Part shown: positions 2,429-36,931 of the stretch, piece by piece
How the letters are laid out: each line of letters begins with the position of its first letter
Numbering within the stretch: the stretch's first letter is position 1
Origin: Acidobacteriota bacterium
GTDB lineage: Bacteria > Acidobacteriota > Vicinamibacteria > Vicinamibacterales > JAKQTR01
Length of the DNA stretch: 64,000 nucleotides
Direction of reading: 5' to 3'
NCBI GenBank assembly: GCA_026393755.1
Contig: JAPKZO010000039.1
Coordinates: 62,001-126,000 of the forward strand
Position numbers and translations under genes: made by a program
The notes under the pieces: model-generated
Databases searched by the model: none
What the model was told of the DNA's origin: nothing
What the model saw: the letters and a program-made list of their open reading frames with translations, nothing else

Positions 2429-5400
2429 ATGGTCCATTCAGAGCGCCCCGTTCGCCTTCTAGTGCTCCTATTCGTCGCGATGCTCGCGGTCGCCCTTCCG
2501 GCTGGCGACGCGGCCGCGCAAACGGTGAACCGCGACGACATCCTCTACATCCTCCCGTATTGGGGAGGCTACCTGGGTGCCGACGACGCGGCTGTCAGTG
2601 CAGAAATTACCGACCTGCGTAAGAGAGTCGGCCCCGAAGGGCCCTACGTCAAGCTAGGCTTCTCGCTGTATATCTTCCTGTCGATGCAGGATTGGAACGT
2701 GGACATCTCCAATCCGACAGCGGTCCGGGCAGCCATCAGTACGAACATCACGCAGATCGATGATGCGGTGGCCAAGGCGCACGCCAATGGGTTTCCGGTC
2801 GCGCTCGCGATTCAGACGGCCATCCGGGAACGCTACGACCCGGTGCAGTCTGCCTCTGAGGCCGAGGACATCCGCAGCATGCAGTGGTACGCGGACAATG
2901 TCCTGGCGGGGGGGTGGTGGACGCATTCGCGTTACGCGCGCAAGCAGTTTGCCATCCAGCAGGCGTACATGCGCGAAATTGCGAAAGAGATCGCACGCCT
3001 GATGCGTCAGTACCCGGACACGCTGGTCGCCGCAAGCGGCGATGGCGAAGTGGAGTTGGCGCTAGCCAAGTTTTGGAACCCGAGTACGGGAGGCCCGGCC
3101 ACCGGATCGGTTAGCGGAACGACGCTCAGGTACAACGGGCAGACGTTTTCGATTGTAGATGGGCGAGTGACGTTCCCTGACTGTTGGGTGTTTGCGGTGG
3201 CCGACAGCGGCGCCCTGGCCTTGATGCTACAACCGAAAGACAATCTCGGATGTACTCCCGATCCGACCTATGCCACTAGATACGCCGACTACTCGCCATT
3301 CATGGTGGCGGAATTCCGGGACTGGCTCCGGAATGCCGGACTTTACGCGCCAGGGGCCATCTACGCGGGCCAGGGCTATTCCCTCGCCGCGCGGTATGCC
3401 GGTGACGCGACGCCGGGCTCCGACACCAATGGCGACGGCCACACGCTGAACGGTGATTTCGGCACGTCCTTTCAGACCTGGAACCTGCTGCACTTCGACT
3501 GGAGTCTCAGCGATCAGTTCGTGTCGGCCGACCCGCACGCGATTCCGCTGACCGCCTACCAATCCACCGGGTACAACAAGCTGCCGGCACAGATCCCGGG
3601 CGGCTTCGATCCGCCACGAACACCGAAGGCGATAGGAGCCGACGCGTGGTGGGATTTGTGGGTGCTGTTCAAGCAGACGATGCTGCAGCATCACAATCAG
3701 GAATTCGCGAAGTGGATGACGACGTCGCCTGAACCGGCGACGGGAGCGACGATTCCGCCCGCGCGCTGGTATTCGGATCAGGTTGCCGCCGACTATCTCT
3801 TCAACGGGTCGCCGCAGGTTCCAAACCCACGCTGGTACAGTTCGATGAGCTCGCTGTCGACGGCCGATGTCTCGCCGTACGGCTCGCTTGGCATCACAGC
3901 GTTCAATCTCGATTACCGCCCGGCGGGGGCATCCTTCACGCTGCAGAACGCGGCGCCGGCCATCGCCGCACGCGACGTGCGATGGGGCATCATCGAGTGG
4001 CACCCCGGTCTCCTGCCAGGCGGCGGCGTGTCGTCCTGGCTGGGCCTCTTCCAGGTCGATATGGAGCTGGTCAAGCAGTACCGGCCGAGCCTGCTTCTAC
4101 CGTTCGGGTGGGACTTCCACAACTACGAAATCAAGGACACGCTGTTCCAGACGACGCTCGCCGAACTGGTGGCATACCTCAAGGATGGCATGCCCTCCAA
4201 TGGGCAGATGGCGTTTGATGCGCCAGGCGCCACCGTGACTCAGCCGTTCACGCTCACCGGCTGGGCTGTTGACCTCGGAAAGATTCCCGGTCCAGGCCGG
4301 GGGCCGGGCATCGACACGGTCCATATCTACGCGTATCCGAACCCTGGATCCGGCCAAGCGCCCATCTTTCTCGGCTCAGCCACATATGGCGGCACGCGAA
4401 CTGACGTGGCCGCCAGGTACCCTAGTCAGTTCGGCCAGTTCACCAAGTCAGGCTTCTCGCTGACCGTGCGCGGCCTTCCGGTGGGCCGCTACGACCTGGT
4501 CGCCTTCGGGCGCAGCACCGTGAGTGAGACGTTCAATGTGTCCGCCACGGTGAGCGTGACGGTCGGCTATGGAGCGGCGGCGCTCAGTCCGGCGATGCTG
4601 GCATTCGGGACCACGAAGGCCGGAAGTGGGGGCGACCTGGTCGCCACCACGCCTGCGCAGATCATCACCGCGTCGTACAGCGGGCCCGGAATTCCCGTCT
4701 GGTCAGCCAGTTCTTCCGCAACGTGGCTCCAGATCACGAGCGGGCCCGGCGTCGGGCAGTTTACGGTCGCCATCGTCAATCCCGGCAACGTGATTGGCGG
4801 ATCGTCATCGCTCTCTGGTGCCGTCACGATCACCGCCTCAAACGTCGGCGTCGGCGGGTCGGTTCCCGTCACGCTGACGGTCAAACAGGTCGGCACGAGC
4901 ACCGCGCCATTCGGAGCGTTCGACACGCCGGCCGACGGCACGGCGGGGATGCAGGGGTCGTTCGCGGTAACGGGCTGGGCGCTCGACGACGTGGCGATTG
5001 ACCGGGTGGAGATCTGGCGGGACCTGGTACAGGGGGAAGATCCCACTCATGCCTACGTGACCGATCCGTCTCACCCCGCTCATGGCAAGGTGTTTATCGC
5101 GAGTCCGCTGTTCGTGACCGACGCGCGCCCGGACGTCGAGGCGTTGTATTCCAGCTATCCGGCCGCGAACCGCGCGGGCTGGGGCTATTTGCTGCTGTCG
5201 TGGGGCCTGGAGGGTCAGGGGAACGGCCCGTACACGCTCTATGCTTACGCGTTTGATGTCGACGGCCACAGCGCGTCGCTCGGCACCAAGACGATCGCGG
5301 TCGACAACGCGCATGCGTCCAAGCCGTTCGGGTCGATTGATACGCCGGGGTACGGGGAGACCAGGTCGGGGACCTTCGTGAACTTCGGCTGGGCGCTGAC

Positions 5401-6529: not shown

Positions 6530-6654
6530 CGCGCCACAGACTGGCCGACGGCACACACCCGCTCCGGATGACGTGTCCCGCTGGTGGCATTTCTTGATGT
6601 GCCCGCGTTCGGCGTCCGCGAGCGCTCCTATGATCGTGGTACTCTAGGGCGCGC

Positions 6655-8439: not shown

Positions 8440-9587
8440 CCCGTTCGCCCGCGCGGCCGCGTGTCGGCTTTGATGCACGCGCGCTTGTCTTTCCCGCTGG
8501 AGGTGTGCGGCGCTACGTGCGAGAACTGTTCGGACGCCTGCCGGCGCTTGCGCCGGATATCGAGTTTGTCGCCGTCGATTCACCACGCGGGCTCGACCTG
8601 CTTCCGGGAACGGTGCGCGGCCCGGACGCGGTCACGTTGCCCACCAATCTCGCCCGCGCGGCCGTTGCGCTCCCGGCCGTCGTCGCACAGGCCCGCCTCG
8701 ATTTGTTTCATGCGCCGGCGTACACGGCGCCACTTGTAGGCCGCACACCCGTGGTGCTGACGATTCACGATGTCAGCTATGTGCGGCGGCCCGAGTTCTA
8801 CGCCCATCAGTCCGGGGTCATCCGCCAGTGGTTCTACCGCCGTAGCGCGTTGCGCGCTGCGCATGTGATCACCGGCTCCACATTCTCTGAACGGGAGATC
8901 GTCGCCGCCTACGGCATCTCGCCAACCCGCATCACGGTGGCGCCGCTGGGTGTCGGCTCGCCGTTTTCGCCGGCGCGGGCGGATATCGCCGTCTCGCTCC
9001 CGGCGGGGGTTCGAGCCCCGTTTGTCCTGCATGTCGGCGATCTGCATCCCCGCCGCGACGTGATGACGGCGTTACGGGCCGTGCTCAACGTCCGTCAGCG
9101 TCAGGCGCGTGTCGAACCAGGTCTCATGTTGGTCTGCGCTGGCCGCGACTACGGGGCGGCACGCGTGCTCCGCCAGGCAAGCGCCGACGCGGGCGCCCCC
9201 GATGTGCTGGTCCTTCCGGGTCCGGTGTCGGAAAACGTGCTGCTCTGCCTCTACCAGCGCGCGGTCGTGTTGGTCTATCCTTCGCTCTACGAGGGTTTCG
9301 GCTTGCCGGTGCTCGAAGCCATGGCCTGTGGAACGCCCGTGGTGGCGGCCCGCGCTGGGTCGCTGCCCGAGGTCGTTGGCGACGGTGGACTTCTCGTCGA
9401 AAGCGGCGACTGGTTGGCGATGGCCGACGCAATCGCGATGCTGCTGACTGATGCGGATCGCCGCCAGGCCCGGCGCGATCGCGGCCTGGCGCGCGCCGCG
9501 GAATTCTCCTGGGATCGGACAGCCAGACAGACGCTCGAAGTGTACCGGCGATGCCTCGGCGGAGACACAGCCCGCAACCGACGATGA
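8436..9587 (+). CDS. GT4-family glycosyltransferase (GT-B fold)
   Basis: 383 residues, GTG start overlapping the stop of the WecA-like gene. The N-terminal half has the glycine-rich start typical of GT4 enzymes (GFDARALVFPAGGVRRYVRE), and the C-terminal half holds the donor-site signature YPSLYEGFGLPVLEAMACG followed by GTPVVAARAGSLPEV. No membrane segments; a cytoplasmic enzyme adding a sugar from a nucleotide donor onto the lipid-linked glycan started by the upstream protein. Donor and acceptor cannot be read from the sequence. Only 4 nt separate it from the next start. Confidence 0.93.
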   Translation: MTRSPARPRVGFDARALVFPAGGVRRYVRELFGRLPALAPDIEFVAVDSPRGLDLLPGTVRGPDAVTLPTNLARAAVALPAVVAQARLDLFHAPAYTAPLVGRTPVVLTIHDVSYVRRPEFYAHQSGVIRQWFYRRSALRAAHVITGSTFSEREIVAAYGISPTRITVAPLGVGSPFSPARADIAVSLPAGVRAPFVLHVGDLHPRRDVMTALRAVLNVRQRQARVEPGLMLVCAGRDYGAARVLRQASADAGAPDVLVLPGPVSENVLLCLYQRAVVLVYPSLYEGFGLPVLEAMACGTPVVAARAGSLPEVVGDGGLLVESGDWLAMADAIAMLLTDADRRQARRDRGLARAAEFSWDRTARQTLEVYRRCLGGDTARNRR

Positions 9588-9591
9588 CGCC

Positions 9592-11490: not shown

Positions 11491-14400
11491 TTACTTCACC
11501 ACCACACGCACCCGCACCGCGTCCGTCCCCGGGGCCTCAAACACGAGGTCGAACGCGCCCAGGAAGGCCGGCGCGGGCTGCCAGTAGAAGACCCCCGCCG
11601 TCGCGTCCAGCGAGGAGCCCACCGGCAACGGGCGGCGCTCGGCGTCCACTGCGAGGTGGCCCAAGTAGCCCCCACTGGCCGCTCGTGGCAGTTGCACTTC
11701 GATGCGGTCGCCCTGCATCACGTCAATGAGGTGGCCGCCTTCGGCATCTGCCGGCAGGTCCTCCCACTCGCCGCCCAACTGGCGGACGGAAACCGGGCCG
11801 ACGAGGGGCGACTGGTTGTCGTCCCGTGCGCTGCGCAGTCTGGCCGGGCTGGAGCCCGGCGATCCCAGGGGAACGCCCGCACGCCGACCACCGACCGTTG
11901 AGCGCTGACTGGTGGGCTCCCCCACTTCGCTCCCTGAGCTTCGTCGAGGTCCAGCCGCAGCGCTGCGCGCCAGGGCGGACACGCCAACGGGCTCGGCGGG
12001 CGGCGTCGTCCCGCGCGGGGCGGCATCAGGGACTGTCGCGAGCCTGGGATCGCCGGGCTCCGGCCCGGCCTCCAGTCGCGATGCGCCAGCATCGGCGCCC
12101 CCATTCAGCACGTTGAAGAACCGGCTGCCAATCCCGTCCCCTCGGCCGCAGCTGTCGTACACCAGCCAGCCGATCTGGTGCCGGCCGTTGGTCAGCGTCG
12201 TCGTGTTCACATAGTACGCGCCACTCGCATTGGCGCTGTTCAGGAAGCCCGGGAACGAGGCGGCAATATCAGCGCGCGCGTCGCCATAGCTGACGAGCGC
12301 GGCCGGGAGCGAGTCGACGGTGACCCACACATGGCCGTTGTCGATCCGGCACGACGCGTCCCCCGCCGGCGTCAGCGCCCAGCCGAAGTTCACGAAGGTC
12401 CCCGACCTGGTCTCCCCGTACCCCGGCGTATCAATCGACCCGAACGGCTTGGACGCATGCGCGTTGTCGACCGCAATCGCCTTGCTCCCGAGGCTCGTCC
12501 AGTGCCCGTCCACGTCAAACGCGAATGCGTAGAGCGTGTACGGGCCGTTCCCCTGCCCCTCCAGGCCCCACGACAACAGCAGATACCCCCAGCCCGCCCG
12601 GTTGGCAAACGGGTAGCCGGCATAGATCCCCTCAACATCCGGGCGCGCGTCCGTCACAAACAACGGATTCGCGATAAACACCTTGCCATGCGCGGGGTGC
12701 GCCGGATCCGTCGTGTAGGCATGCGAACCATCTTCCCCCAGCACCAGGTCCCGCCAGATCTCCACCCGGTCGATGGCCACATCATCCAGCGCCCACCCCG
12801 TCACCGCAAACGACCCCTGCATCCCCGTCGTGCCGTCCCCAGGCGTGTCAAACGCGCCGAACGGGGGCTGGTTCGCCGAGGCCGGCTGCAGCGTCAGCGT
12901 CACCGCCACCGCCTGCGGCGAGTTGCTCGCGCCCGCGGCCGTCACCGTCACCGTCGCCGACGCGCTCGTCGCCGCGCCCAACACGTTGTCGGGGTTGATG
13001 ATCCCCACGGTAAAGGTGCCACTGCCCGTGCCGGCGCCGTGGGTGATCTGCACCCAGGGTTGATCAGCCACCGCCGTCCACGCCAGCGCCGGCGAATTGC
13101 TGAAGATGACCGTGGCCATCTGCGGCCCCGTGAGCGGGTTCAACGTGCCGCCCGTGTTCGTCCCCGTAAACCGCAGAGTCGCCGGTGTCACCGCCAGCGT
13201 GGGAACGGGCTGCACCACCAGATCCACCGTCTTCGTGACCGTTGCGTAAGTAGCGGCATCGGTGGGGGTGAACGTCACTGACAGCGTCTGCGTTCCTGTC
13301 GTGTTCATTGCGGTCCCGGTGGGCGGCGTGAAGACAAACGTTCCCGGCACCGGATTCCCGTTTACCGTGGCTGTCGCATTCAACTGCGTTGCGCTGAGCG
13401 CGGTACCGGCCTTGACCGGCTCTGGCGTCGCCCACGTAATCACCGGGGTCGCCGTGCACGCCAATGTCGTGAAGGGCTGACTGGCGCCGTTGGTCGTGCC
13501 GGCGCTGCTCTGCACACGCGCCCGGTACTGGTACGACGTCCCGCAACTCAGGCCGCTGAGGGTGTAAGTCTGAGTCACGTCGACCGCCCCTGAGCCAATC
13601 ACGCCGTACGTCGCCGTGTTGCCGTAACTGGTGGTTGGCCCATGGTCGAAGTACAGCGTCGTGCTCAGCCCTTTCGGGTTCACTGTCGCACTGAGCTGGG
13701 CGCTGCCTTGCCCGACGTTCGTGGCGGCGTTGGTCGTCACGGCCGGAGGCGCGGGCGGCGCCATGTTCGCCAGGTAGTAGTCGCGCCCGTTGACCGTCGT
13801 GTGGTTCTCGAAGGCGTCGTCGCCCGGCTTCACATCGAATCCGCCTGGGCCCTTGGCCGCGAAGGCAGTCATGTAGCCATTGCCGTCGAACCACAATGTC
13901 GAGAAGTAGAACGCCGCCGGCGTCTGCGTAGCGACGTACGTGAGCGGTGCGTCCGACGTCTTCTCCATCGGCACGTTGAAGACGTTGATGTTCTGAACGG
14001 CCGCGTCGGCCTGGGTGCCCACCGCGGTGTCCGCTTGAAGCCCCATCGCGGCCGGCGGCAGCCACCACCACAGGTACTGGCCGAACGGGTTCCACTGCTC
14101 GGGCAGAGAGTTGGGAGCCAGCGTAGCGTCCATACGCGTGACAAGCGGAACATCGCCGAAGAAACAGTAGTTCTCGTCCCCCATTCCGCCACCCACCTGG
14201 GCGGTCCACGACCACTGCACCCGCGTTTCCACGTTGGAGCCATAGCGGCTCTCGACAAGAGACTGGAAGACGACCGAACCGCCGCCCACCCAGTTGCGCC
14301 CCAAGGACGCCTCGACGACGGTCGACTTGAAGCCAGTATGGGGGCCGCCGTCCTCCGCGACCACGGTCTGGCGGGCGAAGTCGTAATTGATCTCCGCCAG

Positions 14401-21384: not shown

Positions 21385-21489
21385 GCGGCGCGCTGGACGC
21401 GCGCGATGCGGAAACACCACCACGTCGTAGGTGCCGGGCGGCAGCGGGTCCACCGCCAGCTCATACGCCGCGCCAGCCCGCAGTCGTTC
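21385..21489 (-). pseudogene. Relic of a module D C-terminus downstream of P4
   Basis: Right after the P4 stop, in a different frame, the minus strand reads AAYELAVDPLPPGTYDVV then VFPHRARPARR. This matches the end of module D in P1, P5, P6 and P7 (for example LPPGTYDLVVYPHRART). The rest of D is missing, so P4 appears to have lost D by an internal deletion that created the present stop. It has no start and is not expected to be translated on its own. Confidence 0.8.
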
Positions 21490-21491
21490 CG

Positions 21492-24400
21492 TTACTTCAC
21501 GACCACACGCACCCGCACCGCGTTCGTTCCGGGTGCCTCAAACGCGAGGTCGAATGCGCCGAGGAATGCCGAATCTGGCTGCCAATAGAAGATCCCGGCC
21601 ATCGCGTCGAAAGAGGATCCCAGTGGCAGTGGCCGGCGCTCGGCGTTCACCACGATGTGGCCCGTGTAGGCCCCACCCGCCGCGGGCGGCAGTTGCACTT
21701 CAATCCGGCCGCCCTGCGTCACGTCAATGAGATGGCCGCCTTCGGCATCTGCCGGCAGGTCCTCCCAGTCACCGCCCAGATGACGCACCGACACAGTGCT
21801 CGAGGACGCCGCGGGACGGGCCGCCGCCGCGGGCGCCGCCCAGTGCGCAGCCTCAGGCGTCTGCGTTCCCGCGTAGGGGCGCGATTCATCGCGCCCGGCC
21901 GCGACGGCGGTCTCTCGATCGGGCGCCATCAATGGCGCCCCTACGGTCGGATCAGATCCCGAACCCCGCGCGCCGCCATTCAGCACGTTGAAGAACCGGC
22001 TCCCAATCCCGTCCCCTCGGCCGCAAGTGTCGTACACCAGCCAGCCGATCTGGTGCCGGCCATTGGTGAGCGCCGTCGTATCCACATAGTACGAGCCACT
22101 CGCGTTGGTGCTGTTCAAGAAGCCCGGGAACGATGAGGCGATATCACTGCGCGCGTCGCCATAGTTGACGAGCGCGGCCGGGAGCGAGTCGACGGTTGCC
22201 CACACATGGCCGTTGTCGATCCGGCACGAAGAGTCCCCGACTGGCGTCAAGGCCCAGCCGAAGTTCACGAAGACCCCGGACTTGGTCTCCCCGTACCCCG
22301 GCGTATCAATCGACCCGAACGGCTTGGACGCATGCGCGTTGTCGACCGCAATCGCCTTGCTCCCGAGGCTCGTCCAGTGCCCGTCCACGTCAAACGCGTA
22401 AGAGTAGAGCGTGTACGGACCGTTCCCTTGCCCCTCCAGGCCCCACGACAGCAGCAGATACCCCCAGCCCGCCCGGTTCGCGGCCGGATAGCCTGCATAA
22501 ATCCCCTCTACGTCTGGACGCGCGTATGTTACAAACAGCGGACTCGCGATGAATACCTTGCCATTCGCGGGGTGCGCCGGATCCGTCGTGTAGGCATGAG
22601 CGGGATCTTCCCCCAGCACCAGGTCCCGCCAGATCTCCACCCGGTCAATGGCCACATCATCCAGCGCCCACCCCGTCACCGCAAACGACCCCTGCATCCC
22701 CGTCGTGCCGTCCCCCGGCGTGTCGAACGCGCCGAACGGCGGCGCGGACGCGCCTGGGCGCAAGACGGTCAGCGTCACCGGAATCGTCAGCGGCGAGTTG
22801 GACGCGGTCGGCGACGTCATCGTCACCGCGCCCGAGAGCGAGGTGCTCGCACCGATCGTGTCGCCCGGATTCACAATCGCAACGGTGAACGTGCCGGCAC
22901 CGGCTCCCGATCCCGGAGTGACGCTCAGCCAGGCGTCCGTCGTGGTCGCGGTCCACACACTCGATGCGATGCTGAATGTGAGCACCACCGTCTGCGCCGG
23001 CGTCTGCGACGACAGCGTCGCCGATCCGACGGCCTTGACGGCCCCGAAGCTCAACGACGACGGCCTCGCCGTGGCGGGCCCATACACCGTGAGCTCCGCG
23101 GAGTTGGAGGTGGCCGAACCCGATGAGTTGGTGAAGACCGCCTGGTAACGCTTGCCGTTGTCTGCGATCGACGCCGTGAATGCGTACGTGGGTGACGCGG
23201 CGCCAGCGATATCGGTCCACGTGGAGCCACCGTCGGTGCTCACCTGCCACATAACCGTCGGCGCGGGGTTGCCGCTGGCCGCCGCTGTAAATGATGCCGC
23301 GCCACCCGGGGCCACCGACTGATCTGACGGTTGCGTCGTTAATGTCGGCGCCGCGGGCGGACCCACGATCGCGAAGTCGGCATCTGAAATGTCGAAGAAG
23401 ATGTTGCCGACGGCCTCGACCTTGATGCGAGCCGTGGTTGTGGCGGCGTCCGGGATCGCCACCACCGCGCTTCCGGTGTTCGGCGTGCTCGAGGTCAGCA
23501 CCGTTGGGAATGTGATTCCGCCATCGGTCGAAAGCGAGATCTTCACGTCGGCGGCGCTGACAGGCGACGCGCTCGTGCCCGCCACGATCCACGTCACCGT
23601 CTGTGCGCCGCTGGTCCAACCCACACTGCTGTTGGGCGAGGTCACCGCAAAAGGCCCGGCCGCCGTCGTCACGGTGACCTGCACGCGTGACGTCGCCACG
23701 GCACCACCGCCGGAGTGGTTGTCGCGCGCAGTCACCTGGAAGTTCATCGTGCGGTTCGTGACCGCGAGCGTCTCACCGGTCAGACACGTGTTGCTGGAGC
23801 ACAAGTACGTCGCCGGCGGCACGTTGGCGTTGTTCAGGATGTACGCCAGGCTCGGAAACGTGCGCGTCGGGCTCGAACTCGGCAGGTACGACCTGAACAG
23901 CGGCCGCGAACCATCATCGGTCGTTGCCGTCGCCACCGAGGATGACGCGGTGCCCAGATCGAACTCCTCCCATTGATACGTGATGGGGTCCGTGTCCGCG
24001 TCGCTGCCCGTGGCGGTCAGGGTGAATGGCGTCTGCTTGGGGATCGTGTAATTGGAACCGCCGCTCACGTCCGGCAGCGCGTTGCCAGTCGCCGAGGTGG
24101 TTCCGCACGAGGCACCGGCGCCCGACGTCAGGTAGGCGGTGATCTGGTTCAGGCTCTCGACGTGAAACTGATCGTTCGAGTTAGGCTGCAGATTCTCCGG
24201 CGAGCAGATGCCGGCGTAGGCCATGATTGTCGATCCGCTGCCCACTTCGTACGCGTGCGTCGACGACCTGGCGGAACCGCCGCAGTCCGACGACGTACTG
24301 TTGAACGTGTGGTCGCCGCCGAACTGGTGACCGAGTTCGTGCGCGACGTAGTCGACGTCAAACGCGTCGCCGGTCGGGTTCGACAAGCCGGTCGCGCCCT

Positions 24401-25588: not shown

Positions 25589-28500
25589 ATGCCACGTAGG
25601 CACAGTGTTTCTGCAAGACTGATCAGACTGATCCCGGCCGCCGTCATCACGGCGGCAGTCGTATGTACGGGCGTCGTGCGGGCTCAGTCCGGCCCCGTGC
25701 CGCCCACGCCTCACGTGACGTACCTCACTCCCATCTGGGGCGGCATCATTGGGGCCTCGGACGCGGAAGTGGCGGCCCAGGTGGCCACACTTCGGACCAG
25801 GATCGGCGAGGGCGGGGGCCTTAAGGTGGGATTTGCGGCCTATCTGTTCGTCAACATGGCCGACTGGAATGTCGACCTTTCGTCACCCGCCGCAATCCGC
25901 GCGGCGCTCGGGGATTTCGAGGGTCAACTCGACGCAGGCATCCGACACGCGCGGGCGAACAATATTCCGTTTGTCGTCACCATGCTGACGGCCCTCCGGG
26001 CCAAGGTCGACCCCGCGCAGCGGACGTCGTGCGATGAGGATCGACGGGTCATGCAATGGCTGGGGGACAACCAGGCGAAAGACGGCTGGTGGACGTTTTC
26101 ACGGTATGCGCGGCGGCAGTACCGCGTCCAACAGGCCTACATGAAGGAAGTCGCGAAGATCCTCGCCTCGCGCATCGCCCAGGATCCGGAGACGCTCGTC
26201 GCCATCGCGGGAGACGGCGAGATCGAACTCGACTCGGAAGACCTGCCGAAGGTGGCCGACTATTCGCCATTCGCGATTGCGGAATTCCGCGACTGGCTCC
26301 GTGGCGAGGGTTTGTATGCCCCGGGTGCGCCGTTTGATGGCGAAGCCTGGGCCAGCGCGGCGCGATACCGTCATGATGCCAGCCCGGCGGTCGATACCAA
26401 CGGCGATGGACACACCCTCAACGGGGATTTCGGCACATCGTTCACATCGTGGAATCTTCGCTACTTCGACTGGTCCCTGTCCGACCCGGACACGCCGGAT
26501 CCCAAGGCCATCCCGAAAAGCGTTTATGCGGACGCCGCCTTCGATCCGATGCCAGACGCCGGCGCGCAGTACTTCGATGCCTCCCGGATTGTGAATGCGT
26601 CCGACCCGTGGTGGAACATCTGGGATCAGTTCCGCCAGACCATGATCTGGCGACATAACAAGGACCTGGCCAGGTGGATGACGACGACGCCCGACGACAT
26701 GGGTCGTGTCGTCCCGGCTGATCGATGGTTCTCATATCAGATCCCGGCGGACTATTTGTTTGGCGGAACCCCGGAGAATCCGAACTCGCGCCTGCTCGGG
26801 TCGGCGAGTCCGTGGTGGACCGCCAATGTGATGCCCTATGGCGGCCTCGGGTTCACGTCGTTCGGCGTTCGCTTCGGCACCAACACGTACCTGAGAACGC
26901 TGCCAGGCTATTCCGCCGCAATCAAGTCGTGCGAGCCGGGCATCACGTCGCCGCCGACCTGCGTCGAAGGACGGGGAGGCCTCGCGGGCACCTCGTGGGG
27001 CATCTTCGAGTGGAACCCGGTGGTGCCGCTGGCGTCGGCAGACTCTGCCGAACGGGCGCTGCGGCAATCCGAGCAGCGGCGCTGGGCAGCGCGTGCTGCG
27101 CCGGCCACATTGGTGTCCTCGGACTCTCCTGGATCTCCGGGCTCCCCCGGGTCCGGAAGCCCGGGAACGGGTCCCCAGCCGTTCGATACCGCCATCTACC
27201 AGGACGAGATCGAGATCCTGCGGCGCTACCGCCCCCGGGTGCTCGCGCCATTCATGTGGGAGTCGAGCGCCTACAGGATCCTGGACACCGGATTCGAAAC
27301 CGCGTTGCGGCGGTTCGCCGAGTATCTGCGCGACGGGTGGGCGCCGACCCTCAAGGTCGATCGCACGTCCGTGGCTTTCACCGTGCAACAAGTGCAAGGC
27401 GTCACGGCCAACTTCACGTCCACACAGATTGTGCGGGTAAGCCAGCCGACCGGCGGAACGGTGGATTGGTCAGTGAGCGCTGACAAACCGTGGATTGTGC
27501 TATCGCCTGAGTCGGGCCATGGCGACGGCACCTTCACCATTTCAGTGGACCCGGGCCGGATGGCGCTCATGTCTCCTGGCACCTACACGGCGGTCGTCAC
27601 CGTGTCGGGGCCGGGTTCGGTGGAGGGCGTGCGCACGATCAATGTGCCGGTCGTGCTCACCAACGACATGGCTTCAGCCCCTCCGTTCGGGTCCTTCGAC
27701 ACCCCATTGGACGGTGCCACCGGCCTGCAAGGGTCACTTGCGGTGACCGGTTGGGCGCTCGATGACATCGAAATCGATCGTGTCGAACTCTGGCGCGACC
27801 CGGTGCCAAACGAGACGACGCCGCCGTACATCACCGATCCAGCCCACCCGGCCTACGGGAAGATCTTCATCGCCAATCCCTTCTTTGTCTCGGGAGCCCG
27901 AACCGATGTCGAGGCGGCATTCCCGGAATCTCCCTTTGCGAATCGGGCCGGCTGGGGCTATCTGCTGCTCTCGTGGGGACTGTGGAATCAGGGAAACGAT
28001 CGGTACACCCTCTACGCGTACGCCTTCGACAAGGAGGGCCATCACTCCCTGCTCGGCACCAGGACGATCACGGTCGACAACGCGCATGCGACCAGGCCGT
28101 TCGGCGCGATCGACACGCCCGGGTACGGCGCGACCGTCGCGGGCGCGTTCTGGAATTTCGGGTGGGCGCTCACGCCGCCTGCGGAACCGGAGTGCGCCAT
28201 CTCGAACGGCGACGTGAAGATGAATATCGACTCGGGGCCGCTGCTTGCCGTCAACTACGGCGATCTCCGCACCGATATCGCGGCTGCGTTTCCGGGCTTC
28301 AGCAACGACACTGGCAGCAGCGGCGCGTACTACCTCGACACGTCGACGATCGGCAACGGCATCCATCAGATTGGCTGGCTCGTGACAGACACCTGCGGCC
28401 GGCAGGACGGAGTCGGCAGCCGGTTCTTCAATGTACTGAATGGCGGCGCGCGGCCGGCGGATGACGCGGGCGCCGAGGCGACGAGCCCCGGCTCAGCCCG

Positions 28501-29317
28501 GGCCGTAGGGGCGCCATTGATGGCGCCCGCTCGAGAGCCTGCCACCGCGGCCGGGCGCGATGAATCGCGCCCCTACGCGGGAACGCAGACGCCTGATGCT
28601 GTGCACTGGGCGGCGCCCGCGGCGGCGGCCCGCCCCGCGGTGCGCACCGACCCCGTGCACGTGCGTCGTCTGCGCGGCGAATGGCAGGCGGTGGCCCTGA
28701 ATGCGGACGGGACGCGCGTCATCGAGGTCGATCAGGATCAACGCATCGAAGTGCAGTTGCCCGCACTGCTGCACGGGACCTACGCAGGATTCCAGCAGCT
28801 CGGCCCGGGCCGGCGGCCGCTTCCGCTCGGCTCGTCGCTCGACGCGCGCGCAGGGATCTTCTACTGGCAGCCATCGCCCGGGTTCCTGGGGATCTTCGAC
28901 CTGCTCTTCGCGCCGGTAGATGGCGCGGACGGATTCGTTCGCGTGCGTGTCGTCGTCGGCCCGCCGATGCGAATGGTCGTGGATACGCCGGCTCAGGCAG
29001 CGGTCGTGTCATCGCCCTTCACCGTTTCCGGCTGGGCGGTGGATCTGGCAAGTGATCACGGCGCGGGTGTGGACACCGTTCACGTGTGGGCCTATCCAGC
29101 CGACGGAGGCGCGCCTCTGTGGCTCGGAGTGGCCGCCTGCGGAGGGTCGCGACCCGACGTCGGCGCCCTGTACGGACCGACGTTTGTTGACGCGTCGTTC
29201 TCGCTCGTCGTGGACCAGTTGCCAGCTGGCACCTATGACGTTGTCGCATACGCGCACCGGGCCAGAACCACCGCGTTTGAAGCGGCGCTGTCCGTGCGGA
29301 TAACCGTGCGACAATAG
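25589..29317 (+). CDS. P5: secreted giant protein, glycoside-hydrolase-like head plus BACON-A-B-C-D tail
   Basis: 1242 residues from ATG 25589; the frame is open from a TTG at 25562, but the ATG gives a cleaner signal peptide (LIRLIPAAVITAAVVCTGVV). No clear Shine-Dalgarno is seen. The head (about 35-580) is homologous to P1: TPIWGGIIGASDAEV against the P1 PYWGGYLGADDAAV, GDGEIEL (Glu211), SPFAIAEFRDWLR, DTNGDGHTLNGDFGTSF and WGIFEWNP (Glu474). Near 500-530 it carries a Ser/Gly/Pro low-complexity insert absent from P1. Then BACON-like (586-690), A (698), B (836-951), a linker with the palindrome pair, C (1025-1110) and D (1125-1242). Conserved Glu residues suggest a retaining glycoside hydrolase of clan-A type, unproven. 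P6 follows 46 bp downstream. Confidence 0.85.
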   Translation: MPRRHSVSARLIRLIPAAVITAAVVCTGVVRAQSGPVPPTPHVTYLTPIWGGIIGASDAEVAAQVATLRTRIGEGGGLKVGFAAYLFVNMADWNVDLSSPAAIRAALGDFEGQLDAGIRHARANNIPFVVTMLTALRAKVDPAQRTSCDEDRRVMQWLGDNQAKDGWWTFSRYARRQYRVQQAYMKEVAKILASRIAQDPETLVAIAGDGEIELDSEDLPKVADYSPFAIAEFRDWLRGEGLYAPGAPFDGEAWASAARYRHDASPAVDTNGDGHTLNGDFGTSFTSWNLRYFDWSLSDPDTPDPKAIPKSVYADAAFDPMPDAGAQYFDASRIVNASDPWWNIWDQFRQTMIWRHNKDLARWMTTTPDDMGRVVPADRWFSYQIPADYLFGGTPENPNSRLLGSASPWWTANVMPYGGLGFTSFGVRFGTNTYLRTLPGYSAAIKSCEPGITSPPTCVEGRGGLAGTSWGIFEWNPVVPLASADSAERALRQSEQRRWAARAAPATLVSSDSPGSPGSPGSGSPGTGPQPFDTAIYQDEIEILRRYRPRVLAPFMWESSAYRILDTGFETALRRFAEYLRDGWAPTLKVDRTSVAFTVQQVQGVTANFTSTQIVRVSQPTGGTVDWSVSADKPWIVLSPESGHGDGTFTISVDPGRMALMSPGTYTAVVTVSGPGSVEGVRTINVPVVLTNDMASAPPFGSFDTPLDGATGLQGSLAVTGWALDDIEIDRVELWRDPVPNETTPPYITDPAHPAYGKIFIANPFFVSGARTDVEAAFPESPFANRAGWGYLLLSWGLWNQGNDRYTLYAYAFDKEGHHSLLGTRTITVDNAHATRPFGAIDTPGYGATVAGAFWNFGWALTPPAEPECAISNGDVKMNIDSGPLLAVNYGDLRTDIAAAFPGFSNDTGSSGAYYLDTSTIGNGIHQIGWLVTDTCGRQDGVGSRFFNVLNGGARPADDAGAEATSPGSARAVGAPLMAPAREPATAAGRDESRPYAGTQTPDAVHWAAPAAAARPAVRTDPVHVRRLRGEWQAVALNADGTRVIEVDQDQRIEVQLPALLHGTYAGFQQLGPGRRPLPLGSSLDARAGIFYWQPSPGFLGIFDLLFAPVDGADGFVRVRVVVGPPMRMVVDTPAQAAVVSSPFTVSGWAVDLASDHGAGVDTVHVWAYPADGGAPLWLGVAACGGSRPDVGALYGPTFVDASFSLVVDQLPAGTYDVVAYAHRARTTAFEAALSVRITVRQ
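28509..28572. repeat. Palindrome pair (family 1) in P5 linker
   Basis: GGGCGCCATTGATGGCGCCC (28509-28528) and GGGCGCGATGAATCGCGCCC (28553-28572), same order and spacing as the reverse complement of the P4 pair, read in frame as GRDESRPYAG at the second palindrome. Confidence 0.88.
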
Positions 29318-29363: not shown

Positions 29364-32300
29364 ATGTCTGTCCCGAGCACGAGGACGTTCGGTCTGCTGC
29401 TGGTGGCGGTCCTCGCGCTCGGCGCCCCTGCCGGCTCGCCGTTGTCGGCGTTCCGCTCCCGCGACATTCGTGGAATCCTGTTTGCCGCCTCTTCGCAGCC
29501 AGCGGCCCAGGCTCGACCTGCCGATCCCACAGTGATTCGGTCCCGGCTTGTGACCATCGACCTCGGCGCGCTTCAGGCCGCGCGGCCTGTCGATCCTGGC
29601 GCCGCGGCTGGCCCGTCCCTTCTGATCAATCTGTTCGACGACCTCGCGTACAACGCTGTCGTGGATCGCATCGATCCCGCTGTCGGGGGCTTCACGTGGG
29701 TCGGTCACATCCCTGGCCATGATCTCAGCACGGTGACGCTGGCGACGGTTGACGGTGTGGTCGCCGGGGGCATCGTCATGCCGGAAGCGGCCTACACCAT
29801 CAGGTACGTCGGGGGCGGCGTCCACGAGGTGGCTCAGATCGATCAGGCGAACTTTCTTCCGGAGGCCAATCCGATCGCCGTGTCCGTCGGTCGCACGGCA
29901 GCCGCCGCCGCACCTCGCGATCCGGCTGCCGCGGGAGACAGCGGGGCGACGATCGATGTGATGGTGCTCTACACGCCTGCGGCGGCAGCGGAGGCCGGCG
30001 GCACGAGCGGCATTCGTGCGCTGATCAATCAGGGGGTCAGTGACGCGAACACCTCGTATGCGAACAGCGGGATCACGCAGCGACTCAACGCGGTGTATGT
30101 CGGTGAGGTGGAGTACACGGAAAGCCCGTACGTCTCGGGCGACACGAACACGGGAATGGAGCGGGACCTGGACAACCTGCAAGGCGGAGCGGGTGCCTTG
30201 AGCGGCGTCGCAGGTCTTCGCGACGGCTACGGGGCCGATCTCGTGTCGTTGATCATCAGAAGGGCGACCGACTGGTGTGGCATGGGTTACATGATGGATT
30301 CGGTGGGCTTGTATTTCGAGCGCTATGCGTTCAACGTTGTCGACCGGTCCTGCATCCCCGGCTTCACGCTGGCTCACGAACTCGGCCACAACATGGGGGC
30401 CCAGCACGACTGGTACATGGACAACTCGACAACGCCCTACTCGTACGCACATGGCTATGTCGATACCCGGAACCGGTTTCGGACGGTGATGGCCTATAAC
30501 TTCGCCTGCACCAAGGATCTGGGTTTCAGCTGCACGCGGCTGCTCTACTGGTCGAACCCCGCCATCATGTCCCCTGGCGCGAACGGGAGTGCCCCGATGG
30601 GCATTCCCGGCGGCACGAAGACGGACTGCCCGACCGGTGATGCCTCGAACATGTCGTGCGACGCCGACGATCACCAGGCGTTGAACAACACGGCGTTCAC
30701 CGTCGCGAATTTCCGGCAGGCGGCCTCGCCGTCGGGTCCCGCGATCACCTCCCAGCCGGGCAGCCAGACGGTCACGGCGGGATCGACCGCGACATTTGCG
30801 GCGTCGGCAAGTGGCAACCCCTCGCCAACGGTTCGCTGGCAGGTGAGCACGGACGGCGGTGGAAGCTGGAACGACATCGGCGGGGCGACTGCCGCTACGT
30901 ATGCGCTCGTCGCGGGATTCGGTGATAGCGGCAAGCAGTACCGCGCCGTGTTCACCAACTTCATGGGCAGCGCGGCGACCAGTGCCGCCACGCTGACGGT
31001 GAGGACGCCGCCCTCAATCACCCTGCATCCGAGTGATGCGACGGCCCGGGCCGGCGGATCCGTAAGTTTCTCGGCCGCAGCCAGCAGCAGCCCGGCTCCG
31101 ACGGTGCAGTGGCAGATCAGCACCAACGGCGGAGCGACCTTCACCGACCTGACGGGAGCCACCGCAACCACGTACACGTTTGTTGCGGCTGCCGCCGATC
31201 ACAACAACCGCTACCGTGCGGTGTTCACCAGTGACGGAGGCAGCACGCCGACCAACGCGGCGACGTTGACGATTTCAGGCCAGATCACGCTCGACCCGTC
31301 GCCCCTGCTGTTCGCCGCTTCAAAGAACGGGGCGGGACGGGCGATTGCGTTTGTGACGCCGGCACAAACCGTGAGCGTGTCGGGCATCTCGACGGCGTGG
31401 ACCGCGACAGCGGGTCAGGCGTGGCTGCAGGTGACGGGCGGGTCTGGAACCGGCGCGGGACAGTTCACCGTGAGCATTGTCAATCCGGCCGACATCATTG
31501 CTGGAAGCACGTTGCTGAGCGGGACGATCACGGTATCGACCTTAACGACGCCAGCGTCATCGGCGTCGATTCCGGTGACCTTGAGGATCTCCCTGCCTGG
31601 TACGACGGGCGCGCCATTCGGCGCGTTCGACACGCCGACCGATGGAACAGCCGGTATGCAGGGTTCGTTCGCTGTGACGGGCTGGGCGCTCGACGACCTC
31701 GGGATCGATCATGTCGAGATCTGGCGCGACCTGGTAGCGGGAGAGGACCCGGCTCATGCCTACACCACCGATCCGTCTCATCCCGCGTACGGCAAGGTGT
31801 TCATCGCGAATCCGCTGTTCGTCCAAGGAGCGCGACCAGACGTCGAGGCGGCGTATCCGACATTCCCGCAGTCGTACCGCTCAGGCTGGGGTTACCTGCT
31901 GCTGTCGTGGGGGCTCGAAGGTCAGGGGAACGGACCGTACACGCTCTACGCGTTCGCGTTCGACCAGGAAGGCCACGCGACGACGCTCGGGACCAAGACC
32001 ATCTCCGTGGACAACGCGCATGCGTCCAAACCGTTTGGATCGATTGATACGCCGGCGTACGGGGAAACGACGTCCGGGAGCTTCTTCAACTTCGGCTGGG
32101 CCCTGACGCCGCTCGGATCGGCATCGTGCCGAATTGACAACGGCGGTGTGCAGGTGAGCATTGACTCGCTCCCGCTCGCAACCGCCATGTATGGGGACGC
32201 GCGCAGTGATATTGCGGCGGCCTTTCCAGCCTTCTTGAATAGCACGAACGCGAGCGGCGCGTACCTGGTCGACACCAGGCAGTTGTCCAATGGCCAGCAT

Positions 32301-33104
32301 CAGATCGGCTGGCTGGTGACCGATAGCTGCGGCCGGCAGGATGGCATCGGCAGCCGGTTCTTCACCGTGCTGAATGGAGGCGGCGGCGCCCGGCCTGCCG
32401 TCGATGCGGGCGCGACGAAGGCGCGGCCTCCCTCCGTCAGCGCCGACGCAATCTCGGTTCGGCACGGTGGCGAGGTGTGGCAGGCTGTCTGGCCGAACCG
32501 CGGCGGTGACAGAGTGGTCGAAATCGTTCAGGACGGCCGCGTGGACATCGCGCTGCCCCACCGACGATCCGGCACGTTCAGGGGATACCAGATGGTGAAC
32601 GGGCAGCACCGGCCCTTGCCGCTGGGCTCGTCACTGGACACCGGCGAGGGCGTCTACTACTGGCAGCCCGCCGCCGGTTTTCTTGGCAGTTTCGATCTAC
32701 TGTTCGTCACGCCCGATGAGGCGGCCGTCGCGGTGCGTGTGATTGTTGGCCCTGCGGTCCGGATGGCCATCGACGTACCGGAATCCGACCGGACAGTGTC
32801 GGGGCCCTTCACGGTTGAGGGCTGGGCCGTCGATCTTGCCAGCGAGAACGGGTCGGGAATCGATACAGTGCACGTGTGGGCGTACCCGCTCGACGGATCC
32901 GCACCGATATGGCTTGGTGTTGCCGACCGAGGCGATCCCCGCCCTGATGTCGGGGACGTCTACGGAGCGGCCTTCAGTGAGTCGTCGTACAGCCTGAACG
33001 TCGGCAACCTGGCGCCTGGTTCCTACGATGTCGTCGTCTATCCTCACCGCGCGCGGACCAACGCGTTTGAAGGCGCGCAGATCGTGCGGATCGCCGTCCG
33101 GTAG
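29364..33104 (+). CDS. P6: secreted reprolysin-like zinc metallopeptidase with two Ig-like domains and BACON-A-B-C-D tail
   Basis: 1246 residues; ATG 29364 follows GGAG at 5 nt and begins a signal peptide (GLLLVAVLALGAPAG). A propeptide of about 160 residues precedes the peptidase domain, which opens IDVMVLYTPAAAAEAGG and carries HELGHNMGAQHD (His338, Glu339, His342, His348) with Met-turn TVMAYNFAC. It is only distantly like P4, so the two are separate acquisitions or old duplicates. Two Ig-like domains follow (about 459-545 and 550-635), then BACON-like (641-745), A (751), B (889-1006), C (1030-1115) and D (1129-1246). The B-C linker is short and lacks palindromes. Probably co-transcribed with P5. 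Extracellular proteolysis is the likely role; substrates unknown. Confidence 0.9.
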   Translation: MSVPSTRTFGLLLVAVLALGAPAGSPLSAFRSRDIRGILFAASSQPAAQARPADPTVIRSRLVTIDLGALQAARPVDPGAAAGPSLLINLFDDLAYNAVVDRIDPAVGGFTWVGHIPGHDLSTVTLATVDGVVAGGIVMPEAAYTIRYVGGGVHEVAQIDQANFLPEANPIAVSVGRTAAAAAPRDPAAAGDSGATIDVMVLYTPAAAAEAGGTSGIRALINQGVSDANTSYANSGITQRLNAVYVGEVEYTESPYVSGDTNTGMERDLDNLQGGAGALSGVAGLRDGYGADLVSLIIRRATDWCGMGYMMDSVGLYFERYAFNVVDRSCIPGFTLAHELGHNMGAQHDWYMDNSTTPYSYAHGYVDTRNRFRTVMAYNFACTKDLGFSCTRLLYWSNPAIMSPGANGSAPMGIPGGTKTDCPTGDASNMSCDADDHQALNNTAFTVANFRQAASPSGPAITSQPGSQTVTAGSTATFAASASGNPSPTVRWQVSTDGGGSWNDIGGATAATYALVAGFGDSGKQYRAVFTNFMGSAATSAATLTVRTPPSITLHPSDATARAGGSVSFSAAASSSPAPTVQWQISTNGGATFTDLTGATATTYTFVAAAADHNNRYRAVFTSDGGSTPTNAATLTISGQITLDPSPLLFAASKNGAGRAIAFVTPAQTVSVSGISTAWTATAGQAWLQVTGGSGTGAGQFTVSIVNPADIIAGSTLLSGTITVSTLTTPASSASIPVTLRISLPGTTGAPFGAFDTPTDGTAGMQGSFAVTGWALDDLGIDHVEIWRDLVAGEDPAHAYTTDPSHPAYGKVFIANPLFVQGARPDVEAAYPTFPQSYRSGWGYLLLSWGLEGQGNGPYTLYAFAFDQEGHATTLGTKTISVDNAHASKPFGSIDTPAYGETTSGSFFNFGWALTPLGSASCRIDNGGVQVSIDSLPLATAMYGDARSDIAAAFPAFLNSTNASGAYLVDTRQLSNGQHQIGWLVTDSCGRQDGIGSRFFTVLNGGGGARPAVDAGATKARPPSVSADAISVRHGGEVWQAVWPNRGGDRVVEIVQDGRVDIALPHRRSGTFRGYQMVNGQHRPLPLGSSLDTGEGVYYWQPAAGFLGSFDLLFVTPDEAAVAVRVIVGPAVRMAIDVPESDRTVSGPFTVEGWAVDLASENGSGIDTVHVWAYPLDGSAPIWLGVADRGDPRPDVGDVYGAAFSESSYSLNVGNLAPGSYDVVVYPHRARTNAFEGAQIVRIAVR

Positions 33105-33160
33105 TTCCCGGGCCGACGGGCACGGCCGCCGGAGCTTTTCGCGAAGGCAGATGAACCAGG

Positions 33161-36100
33161 CTATCTGACCGTGAAGCGCACGATCTGGGCGGCGTCGAAC
33201 GATCCGGTCTTCGCCCGGTGCACGTAGACCACGATGTCGTAGGTGCCCGGCGAAAGGTGACCGACTACGAGCGTGTACGCCGCCTTCGTGAATGTCGTTC
33301 CGTAGAGCGCGCCCACATCCGGCCGCGGATCACCGTACTCGGCCACGCCGAGCCAGATCGGCGGGGCGCCGCCGGCAGGGTACGCCCACACATGCACCGT
33401 ATCGACGCCTGAGCCCTGCTCCCCAGCCAGGTCGAGCGCCCAGCCCGCTACGGCAAATGGCCGGCGCACCTCGGCGCCGCTGGCAGGCGTGTCAATCGCC
33501 ATCCGCATCGACGGCCCGACGACGACCCCGAGGCGCACGCCCATGCCGCCCGGTGCGACAAATACCAGGTCGTAGCGGCCGAGAAAACCCGGGGCCGGCT
33601 GCCAATAGAAGATGCCGCCGCGCTCGTCAAGCGACGATCCGAGCGGCAGCCGGCGCCGCGCACCTTGCGTGTCCAGATACCCGGTGTACGAACCTGCTGC
33701 CAGCGGCAACCGAACTTCAATCCTGTCGGATTGTCCGACCTCGATCACCCGAACGCCATCGGCGTTGGGCTCGATCACCTGCCAGTCGCCAGCCACGTGG
33801 CGCACGGTCACGGGCTCGCGGCTGACGCCAGGCAGCGCAGGCGCCGGAGGTCGGGCGCCCGACGCCGCCGCGAAATCGAGGGAAGGCCTGGCGCCGCTGT
33901 TCAGCACGTTGAAGAACCGGCTGCCGATGCCATCACCCCGGCCGCAGTTGTCGTACACCAGCCAGCCGATCTGGTGTCGGCCGTTGGTGAGCGCCGTCGT
34001 ATCCACGTAGTAGGCGCCACTGGCGTTGGTGCCGTTCAAGAAGTCCGGGAACGCCGTCGCGATATCACTGCGCGCGTCCCCATAGTTGACCAGCGCGAGC
34101 GGGAGCGAGTCGATGCTCACAAACACGTGACCGTTGTCGATCCGGCACGACGAGTCCCCCGCCGGCGTCAGCGCCCAGCCGAAGTTGACGAAGACCCCGG
34201 ACTTGGTCTCCCCGTACCCCGGCGTATCAATCGATCCGAACGGCTTGGACGCATGCACGTTGTCCACGGAAATAGTCTTGGTTCCGAGCGGCGTCGCGTG
34301 GCCATCCTTGTCGAACGCGAACGCGTAGAGCGTGTACGAGCCGTTCCCTCGACCTTCCAGTCCCCATGACAGCAGCAGGTACCCCCAGCCCGCGCGGTAG
34401 GCTGCCGGGGTGCCGGCGTACAAACTCTCTACGTCCGGGCGCGCGTCTGCCACAAACAACGGCCTCGCGATAAACACCTTGCCGTACGCGGGGTGAGACG
34501 GATCGGAAGTGTAGGCATGAGCAAGATTCTCTGTCGGCGTCAAGTCTCGCCAGATCTCCACGTGATCGATCCCGACGTCGTCAAGCGCCCAACCGGTCAC
34601 CGCGAACGACCCCTGCATCCCGGCCGTACCGTTCACTGGCGTGTCGAACGCTCCGAATGGCGCGGAGGTTCCTGTCTTTGGGTACATCGTGAAGACCACC
34701 CGGATGTACTGCGCGGAATTCGATGTCGTTCCCGCGACCGACTCCTCCACCGTCACGTAGTAGTCGCCCCACATGTTGTCCGGGTAGATCGTGCTCGACG
34801 CGATCGAGACGTCGAAGGTGCCGCTGCCAGTGCCCGATACCGGCGAGACAAGGACCAACGGATTGCTCGACGTGACCTTCCACCGTACACTGCTCGCGCC
34901 AGTTCCTGAGATTGCGACGCTGACTGTCTGAGGATCGCCGACGAGTCGGCCATTGTCGTTGCCACCGAAATCGAGGCGGCGGCGATTCAGCGCGATTCGC
35001 GGCAACAACGCGCTGGTTGTCGACGAATCCACGATAATCGGCCAGCGGGAATACGCGGCGTTGGCGTTCAGGCCGTCCGAAACGCTCGCGTAGATGTAAT
35101 AGGTGCCATTGGGAACACCGGTCGTATTCCACGTGTAGCTGCTGGAGATCGCCGGATTCACGCCTGTGACGATCTGTGTGAGGCCGCTCGACGGGTCGAT
35201 ATCGGTGTCGTAGTACAGCGTCAGCGTCGGGGTACCCGGCGCCAGCAAATCGGCGTACGTCCACCGGATGGTGTACTGGTTGCTGACCGTCTTCTCGTTG
35301 GCGGCGAGCTTGAAGTTCTTGACGTAGAACGTCGTGGCGTCCGGGTACTCGTGCGGATCGAGACGGAAATTCTCGATGTTGCCGGCCCACCCCGTCGTCG
35401 ACAGCTCGGTGCCGGCTTCGGTCACGATCCGCAGGCAGTGATTCCATTCGGTTACCGACGGCTCGCATGTCCGCATCGACGTGATGATCTTCGACATCAC
35501 GTTAGAGCCGGCGCGCGAGTTGAAGATCAGGTCTTTGCTGACGTTCTCCTTGGCCTCTTCGCCCTCGATCAGCCAGACGACGCGCGCGATCGATCCGAGG
35601 TTGATGTCGCGGGCCTTGTCGGGAACACCCATTTCCAGCGTGAGAATGTGGTAGCGGCTCGAGTCGATCTTCTTGTAGCGCCCGCGCCCATCACCCGCAA
35701 ACCACAGGAAGTACATGTACGGATCGCCAGACCCGACCTGCCCTGCCGCCGCACTGGTGCCCTGGAGGACGTTGACGTTCCCGAGCGAGCTTCCCGCTTC
35801 ATTGACTGCGGCGATCGTCGTCGCGGTCAGGCCTGAGACGTTGACGGCATAGTCGACCTGCGACGTGCTCGTCATGTCCCACGCCTGGTTCAGCTGGACC
35901 GTCGCGAAGTCGTCGCTGCTGCCCTCGGGCGAGGGAGACGTGAACGTGAACGTCGGAGTGTCGTTGACGCGGTAGAAACCGGACGAGTACCTGCACCCGT
36001 TGCTGGTTGCCGGATCGGCGCCGGTCGGGCAAATCTCCACGTAATAGTCGCCCGCGGCCAGGGCGCCGGGCTGGAAGGTGTGCGACCCGCCTGAGACATT

Positions 36101-36931
36101 GCGCGCAGGCAGCGCCTGGTTGGACGCGGTGAGCACACCCAGGTTGCCATCTGACGCCGTCTGGTTGTCGTCCAGATAGACGTCCACGTTACCCGAAAAA
36201 CCACTCCATGTAATGGTCTGGGTGGGCAGGTTATCGGGAACCAGCCGGATCCAGTCGATCTCGATCGCCGCGCCGGCAGTGGCCGTCAGATTCAGCCGCA
36301 GGTCGCCGATCGTGCCGGTCCACGGCGCCAGAGGGGATCCGCTGGCATAGCCGAACGTCGGCAGGTCTATGAAGTAGATCTGCCATCCGTCAAAGGTGAA
36401 GAAACTATTCGAACGAGTTTCAGTCGTCGGAGTGTCGTAGAGGGTCCCTTTGTGCCAGAGGTAGCCGGCCGTACACGCGAGCGTCGGCAACGCCAACGTG
36501 CAGGCTCCGCCGGTATCGAGTCTCATGCGAACGGCGACAGTCTTGTAAGTGCTGGCGTCGATCGGAAAGTTGTCGCCCGTCTTGCCAATCCTCGAACTGG
36601 GAGGGTTGCCTGTTTCAAGGATCCAGAGGTTGCTGTCGGTACCTGACGTCGTCGCCTTGAGGCAGGTCGAGGTCGATCCGCCGCCGGTGCAGGTGGTGTG
36701 AGTCACGCCGCTCAAATTCGTGAGCGGGCCGTCGTTGGCATACAGCCACCAACTGACATCGGTCCACTGATTCATGTCAATGGGCTTCTGGAACGTCCGC
36801 GTCGCCCAATCCTGTCCAGCCGCCACGACGATCTGGCTGGCTGGCGCCCCCACGGATTGGCCGGCCGCATGCGATGCCAAAGCTGCTGCAACCAGACCAA
36901 CGGCCGCGATGGCGAGGATTCCCTGCCGCAT
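33161..36931 (-). CDS. P7: secreted giant protein with CBM-like/unassigned head and BACON-A-B-C-D tail
   Basis: 1256 residues. The frame is open to 37138, but ATG 36931 has GAGGGAG 5 nt upstream and starts a signal peptide (GILAIAAVGLVAAALASHAAG), so I use it. The head (about 30-640) is beta-rich: a segment ending GAAIEIDWIRLVPDN resembles galactose-binding/CBM-type sandwiches, and near 580-640 a Big/FN3-like piece has NTTGVPNGTYYIYASVSDG. No catalytic motif is recognised. A BACON-like domain (649-750), A (757), B (895-1010), C (1039-1125) and D (1139-1256) complete it. It converges on P6, their stops 56 bp apart, so two near-identical tails face each other. A carbohydrate-binding role is inference. 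Confidence 0.82.
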   Translation of the reverse strand: MRQGILAIAAVGLVAAALASHAAGQSVGAPASQIVVAAGQDWATRTFQKPIDMNQWTDVSWWLYANDGPLTNLSGVTHTTCTGGGSTSTCLKATTSGTDSNLWILETGNPPSSRIGKTGDNFPIDASTYKTVAVRMRLDTGGACTLALPTLACTAGYLWHKGTLYDTPTTETRSNSFFTFDGWQIYFIDLPTFGYASGSPLAPWTGTIGDLRLNLTATAGAAIEIDWIRLVPDNLPTQTITWSGFSGNVDVYLDDNQTASDGNLGVLTASNQALPARNVSGGSHTFQPGALAAGDYYVEICPTGADPATSNGCRYSSGFYRVNDTPTFTFTSPSPEGSSDDFATVQLNQAWDMTSTSQVDYAVNVSGLTATTIAAVNEAGSSLGNVNVLQGTSAAAGQVGSGDPYMYFLWFAGDGRGRYKKIDSSRYHILTLEMGVPDKARDINLGSIARVVWLIEGEEAKENVSKDLIFNSRAGSNVMSKIITSMRTCEPSVTEWNHCLRIVTEAGTELSTTGWAGNIENFRLDPHEYPDATTFYVKNFKLAANEKTVSNQYTIRWTYADLLAPGTPTLTLYYDTDIDPSSGLTQIVTGVNPAISSSYTWNTTGVPNGTYYIYASVSDGLNANAAYSRWPIIVDSSTTSALLPRIALNRRRLDFGGNDNGRLVGDPQTVSVAISGTGASSVRWKVTSSNPLVLVSPVSGTGSGTFDVSIASSTIYPDNMWGDYYVTVEESVAGTTSNSAQYIRVVFTMYPKTGTSAPFGAFDTPVNGTAGMQGSFAVTGWALDDVGIDHVEIWRDLTPTENLAHAYTSDPSHPAYGKVFIARPLFVADARPDVESLYAGTPAAYRAGWGYLLLSWGLEGRGNGSYTLYAFAFDKDGHATPLGTKTISVDNVHASKPFGSIDTPGYGETKSGVFVNFGWALTPAGDSSCRIDNGHVFVSIDSLPLALVNYGDARSDIATAFPDFLNGTNASGAYYVDTTALTNGRHQIGWLVYDNCGRGDGIGSRFFNVLNSGARPSLDFAAASGARPPAPALPGVSREPVTVRHVAGDWQVIEPNADGVRVIEVGQSDRIEVRLPLAAGSYTGYLDTQGARRRLPLGSSLDERGGIFYWQPAPGFLGRYDLVFVAPGGMGVRLGVVVGPSMRMAIDTPASGAEVRRPFAVAGWALDLAGEQGSGVDTVHVWAYPAGGAPPIWLGVAEYGDPRPDVGALYGTTFTKAAYTLVVGHLSPGTYDIVVYVHRAKTGSFDAAQIVRFTVR

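Follow-up and report, generated by a model that had tools for sequence, protein, structure and literature searches.

The window, a 64-kb stretch of contig JAPKZO010000039.1 (assembly GCA_026393755.1), contains seven genes, P0001 to P0007, whose products share a modular C-terminal tail (Table 1). All seven (7/7) are open reading frames at the coordinates given by the initial annotation. The BACON-A-B-C tail is common to all of them, and a terminal module D is present in P0001, P0005, P0006 and P0007, as annotated. The complete module order is BACON-A-B-linker-C, with or without D. In an alignment of the seven window proteins, the tails are pairwise 51-80% identical over 485-640 residues, and the mean column identity is 87% for A and B, 66% for C, and 76% for D. 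A second, internal module D in P0001 is an addition to the layout described earlier. A decayed remnant of D follows the stop codon of P0004, and therefore the ABC-only tail of P0004, at least, arose by loss of D. The same genome (G000) encodes three further A-B-C proteins outside the window, two on contig C28 and one on C32. A 568-amino-acid frame on its contig C12 (L146) contains two D-type domains, and D is thus also used outside the A-B-C tail. Elsewhere in the window are an AddAB-like pair of a UvrD-type helicase/PDDEXK protein and a PDDEXK nuclease (50922-57202), and two neighboring Band_7 (SPFH) proteins (60797-62763).

Table 1. Features of the tail locus, in window coordinates.
Feature	Position	Strand	Composition or remark
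P0001	2429..6529	+	GH-like head (one TYNG-type repeat inserted), internal D, BACON, A, B, C, D
TYNG repeat	3071..3259	+	single copy within P0001 head; the shared tail repeat of sister genome G135
Internal module D of P0001	4208..4564	+	C39:66208-66564; residues ~595-705, ahead of BACON
A-B unit of P0001	4910..5668	+	
Module C of P0001	5834..6178	+	
Terminal module D of P0001	6173..6526	+	
Glycan genes by P0001	6655..11474	+	polyprenyl-sugar transferase (GT4 + CoA_binding_3), GT4, two GT2; syntenic in G135
P0002	11491..14991	-	unassigned head, Ig-like domains, BACON, A-B (12103-12861), C (11494-11817)
P0003	15275..21259	-	14 FG-GAP repeats, TIG, BACON, A-B (15875-16633), C (15278-15601)
Module D remnant	21394..21474	-	decayed; immediately 3' of P0004 stop
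P0004	21492..25433	-	reprolysin-like peptidase, Ig, BACON, A-B (21978-22736), C (21495-21818)
P0005	25589..29317	+	GH-like head, BACON, A-B (27686-28441), C (28631-28963), D (28958-29314)
P0006	29364..33104	+	reprolysin-like peptidase, Ig, BACON, A-B (31617-32375), C (32427-32753), D (32748-33101)
P0007	33161..36931	-	unassigned head, BACON, A-B (33899-34657), C (33512-33838), D (33164-33517)

Modules A, B, and D share homology (hhalign probability 88-95%, E 3e-6 to 3e-8) and thus constitute one domain family rather than three modules. The initial annotation regarded the tail modules as uncharacterized, a view that has to be revised: A, B, and D can be identified as Ig-like domains related to Big_7, C resembles He_PIG in a few members, and the BACON domain is BACON_2-like. 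None of the window modules reaches a curated Pfam cut-off. The window proteins score 15.8-16.7 bits against Big_7 (PF17957; cut-off 24.1), and the tail of P0007 alone scores 23.9. The Big_7 matches cover only a part of the profile, the N-terminal part of which is matched by module A in many members. Among 58 related tails, Pfam detects Big_7 in 46 (E<0.01), BACON_2 in 29, BACON in ten, and He_PIG in two. Because relatives reach a Big_7 E-value of 1.6e-9, the superfamily link is real, although the copies in the window fall short of a membership call. A, B, and D differ from Big_7 in sharing an R-x-D-V segment, modeled as a short helix. A separate acidobacterial family (L064-L081) of mostly 540-610 residues contains several B-like Ig domains, with a Big_7 E-value of 2.6e-17 in L064.

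The best window score against BACON_2 (PF19190) is 22.6 (P0005; cut-off 25), and P0004 also has a weak match. A Pfam search for BACON (PF13004) across the genome of the window gave nothing above the threshold, and a profile of the tail BACON domain reaches the BACON domain of the GH5 structure 3zmr. Unlike BACON and BACON_2, the window domain is not N-terminal but directly precedes A. It tracks the head of the protein and not the tail, with 24-50% identity in most window pairs and 84% between P0003 and P0004.

The tail is confidently predicted to be a string of five Ig-like β-sandwiches. The AlphaFold2 model, calculated from the alignment of 58 sequences, has a pLDDT of 89.9 and a pTM of 0.86, with disorder in the linker alone. 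The modeled domains have the Ig-like β-sandwich fold, and Foldseek matches the model to Ig chains, including the titin I-band, cadherins, contactin, and S-layer proteins (best E 3.7e-17). Single-domain VIA hits, such as those to sulfite oxidase and S-layers, were set aside as common Ig-like folds. Twenty-one columns of A-B are invariant across the 58 sequences.

A search for relatives bore out the expectation of the initial annotation that a lineage-limited tail would follow many unrelated secreted heads. A scan of the genomes of 84,980 species found 41 A-B loci, almost all of them from Acidobacteriota or Aminicenantes by name; it used two short patterns, and absence of A-B elsewhere does not follow from it. 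The exceptions are one locus labeled Proteobacteria (L016) and one from an unplaced bacterium (L045). Some match is present in 55 of 396 genomes of the phylum, and a near full-length A-B in about a dozen. A-B is missing from G135, the one same-genus genome among the 396. The BACON-A-B-C(-D) order is kept in relatives, where the tail follows InlB-type repeats, SBBP propellers, RCC1, FG-GAP, LRR and NHL domains, peptidases such as subtilases, and GH-like domains. The tailed proteins carry N-terminal hydrophobic (export) segments. The last module of the 56 proteins with a complete end is B in 8, C in 37, D in 7, and another domain in 4. The 52 proteins that finish at B, C, or D contain no C-terminal hydrophobic segment.

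Within the genome, the A-B unit is homogenized. Between window paralogs, DNA identity rises from approximately 50% in BACON to 80-100% in A-B and falls to approximately 40% in the linker, with sharp steps where A begins and B ends. Mean differences at fourfold sites are 0.27 for B and 0.39 for A, compared to 0.51 for BACON, 0.54 for C, and 0.64 for D. Exact DNA runs of up to 132 bp are shared between window paralogs. The tree of heads places P0001 with L016 and G135 and rejects a grouping of P0001 with P0005 (AU p 8e-6). In the A-B tree, all ten tails of the genome form one clade (99/97), and a grouping of P0001 with L016 is rejected (AU p 3e-4). Between P0001 and L016, orthology holds for the head (63% identity), internal D (64%), and BACON (54%), whereas A, B, C, and D of P0001 resemble copies from its own genome more than those of L016. 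The conflict between the trees shows that the tail was exchanged or converted within the genome, by either process. Unusual constraint on the tail was rejected as the cause, since the within-genome likeness is largely due to recombination.

The heads are diverse. Pfam supports two assignments of the initial annotation, zinc metallopeptidases, of reprolysin type, in P0004 and P0006, and an FG-GAP propeller in P0003. The proposed glycoside hydrolase heads of P0001 and P0005 are only suggestive, with weak TIM-barrel matches. The model of the GH-like head is of low confidence (pLDDT 58.8); its best Foldseek matches are of GH1/GH5 type with E 0.014 or worse, and it gave no significant match against the PDB. 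Heads of the P0007 type are conserved, and again carry this tail, in L026, L043, L102, and L103. Tailless GH-like heads are present in three genomes (G368, G154, and G256). In two Aminicenantes genomes (L102 and L103), genes for tailless GH-like, tailed GH-like, and tailed P0007-type proteins are clustered, and in L102 a radical SAM/SPASM gene is also located between them.

The G135 locus shows synteny to the window, with identities of 72% for the ABC-2 permease, 71% for GT4, and up to 94% for the flanks, and encodes orthologs of the heads of P0001 (55%) and P0006 (56%). Homology between the G135 and window proteins stops at the head boundary. Both G135 orthologs end in several copies of the TYNG repeat, accompanied by glycine-rich linkers or Ig-like domains. 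Within one genus, therefore, two heads encoded at the same locus bear one shared tail in the first genome and a different one in the second. As these heads occur in G135 without A-B, the unit is not a universal need of theirs. The TYNG repeat is approximately 60 residues long and contains two cysteines. Among the 396 genomes, it is found only in G135, in 13 copies in three genes, and in G000, as the one copy within the P0001 head. TYNG sites include L100 and L123:7790-10426, and in one of the three G135 genes the repeats precede a propeller-like region. The A-B-C gene on C32 of G000 and the TYNG gene on C3 of G135 were rejected as a third swap: the two share one common neighbor (66%), but their heads are only weakly alike (E 0.002). 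The P0007 head was not found in G135 in a search that had no positive control.

The tailed genes were initially described as lying beside glycan genes. This holds for the window, where a Wzm-type ABC-2 permease lies upstream in the polysaccharide locus, for the syntenic locus of G135, and for Aminicenantes, where clustered GH-like and P0007-type tailed heads are encoded near ABC exporters and glycosyltransferases. It is not general among A-B loci elsewhere: a search with few query proteins and short flanks found a homolog of a glycan gene beside only five of 41. We therefore rejected glycan genes as a general neighbor of A-B; the neighborhood belongs to some of the heads and not to the tail in general. 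The two A-B genes of C28 adjoin EpsE-like and EpsF/Wzc-like genes. The surrounding C28 region (L082, L124, and L125) is an exopolysaccharide region of PEP-CTERM/exosortase type, with PrsT and four PEP-CTERM proteins encoded around the A-B genes.

Common C-terminal modules of secreted proteins are usually interpreted as sorting signals. The initial annotation proposed a sorting, binding, or assembly function for the tail, and its lineage-limited distribution, C-terminal position, and unrelated heads agree with this range of functions; the sorting option is weakened by heads with another tail or none. We consider it quite unlikely that a dedicated translocon in the outer membrane recognizes the tail as a sorting or secretion signal, as happens with the type IX C-terminal domain. 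The tail is nearly always C-terminal (52 of 56 proteins) and common to unrelated heads, and A-B is more conserved than the heads in distant pairs (47-48% versus 30-37%). However, the same heads carry another tail in same-genus G135 and are tailless in three other genomes, the final module varies, and one A-B unit precedes a Por_Secre_tail domain, a domain that the genome of the window itself lacks. These different or absent tails, the varying last module, and the A-B unit ahead of a type IX domain make a type IX-like signal less likely. A different repeat at the same place in a sister species makes the tail look like an exchangeable holder and not a fixed export signal, and the existence of tailless GH-like heads indicates that it is optional. 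We favor, at about even confidence, an interchangeable extracellular presentation stalk for unrelated heads of Sec-exported proteins. The Ig-like chain, probably attached to the cell surface or its polysaccharide coat, would keep the heads, whether catalytic, propeller, or binding, at a distance from it.

The N-terminal segments, the fold, and the exchange are observed; beyond them, we predict an extracellular, surface-attached function of the tail, in which A, B, and D may contact a ligand, a surface or matrix partner. It appears unlikely that A, B, and D serve as carbohydrate-binding modules that recognize the polysaccharide on the surface of their own cell. The location of the window and G135 loci within a polysaccharide locus, the Aminicenantes clusters, and the two genes beside the Eps-like and PEP-CTERM gene sets would fit this function, but the tail modules match none of the known carbohydrate-binding families in Pfam, an Ig-like fold by itself does not imply binding, and glycan genes were detected near few of the other A-B loci. 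Alternatively, the Ig-like domains could merely add length and be homogenized by recombination without selection. A spacer role has been proposed for BACON and similar Ig-like domains (PMC11216935, which deals with DUF1735, BACON, and SusE/F), the length and modules of the tail vary freely, and G135 has another repeat in its place. The proposal fits the tail but leaves homogenization unexplained, and the order and invariant residues of A-B, kept across Acidobacteriota, exceed the needs of a mere spacer; a passive spacer has a low probability. The homogenized block could itself have arisen by chance, through unselected recombination between neighboring repeats. Under the stalk reading, the homogenization of one A-B sequence among the genes, by gene conversion or domain shuffling, would keep every tail of the genome suited to a single partner. 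More tentatively than the stalk function itself, we suggest that the stalk of Acidobacteriota genomes is genome-specific, that gene conversion keeps it uniform on the secreted proteins of a locus, and that a sister species can exchange the entire set for an unrelated stalk, as would be expected if all had to match one cell-surface partner.

We found no description of the A-B-C(-D) tail in the literature searched. New here are the homogenized A-B unit and the replacement of the tail on orthologous heads in a same-genus genome. Orthologous heads with two unrelated common tails at one locus, one of which is homogenized apart from the heads, provide a natural experiment that could separate export, anchoring, and matching to a surface partner, in a phylum, Acidobacteriota, where protein display is little studied.

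The window proteins contain no LPxTG, PEP-CTERM, or T9SS signals, in agreement with the initial annotation. Por_Secre_tail has no match in these proteins or in their genome, with a positive control, and SprA has no match in the genome, but the control genomes were silent too. NCBIfam models of PEP-CTERM do not match the window proteins. In the unplaced bacterium, a C-terminal domain of T9SS type comes after A-B (Por_Secre_tail; L045:5881-7320). The window tail resembles the type IX C-terminal domain in being a C-terminal Ig-like domain common to unrelated secreted heads, and differs from it in that its terminal module varies and A-B can stand ahead of a genuine T9SS-type domain. A-B proteins differ from PEP-CTERM/exosortase proteins in their lack of the PEP-CTERM motif and of a C-terminal hydrophobic segment. 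They resemble them in being secreted and tied to exopolysaccharide loci, with PrsT and PEP-CTERM proteins encoded near two A-B genes of the same genome.
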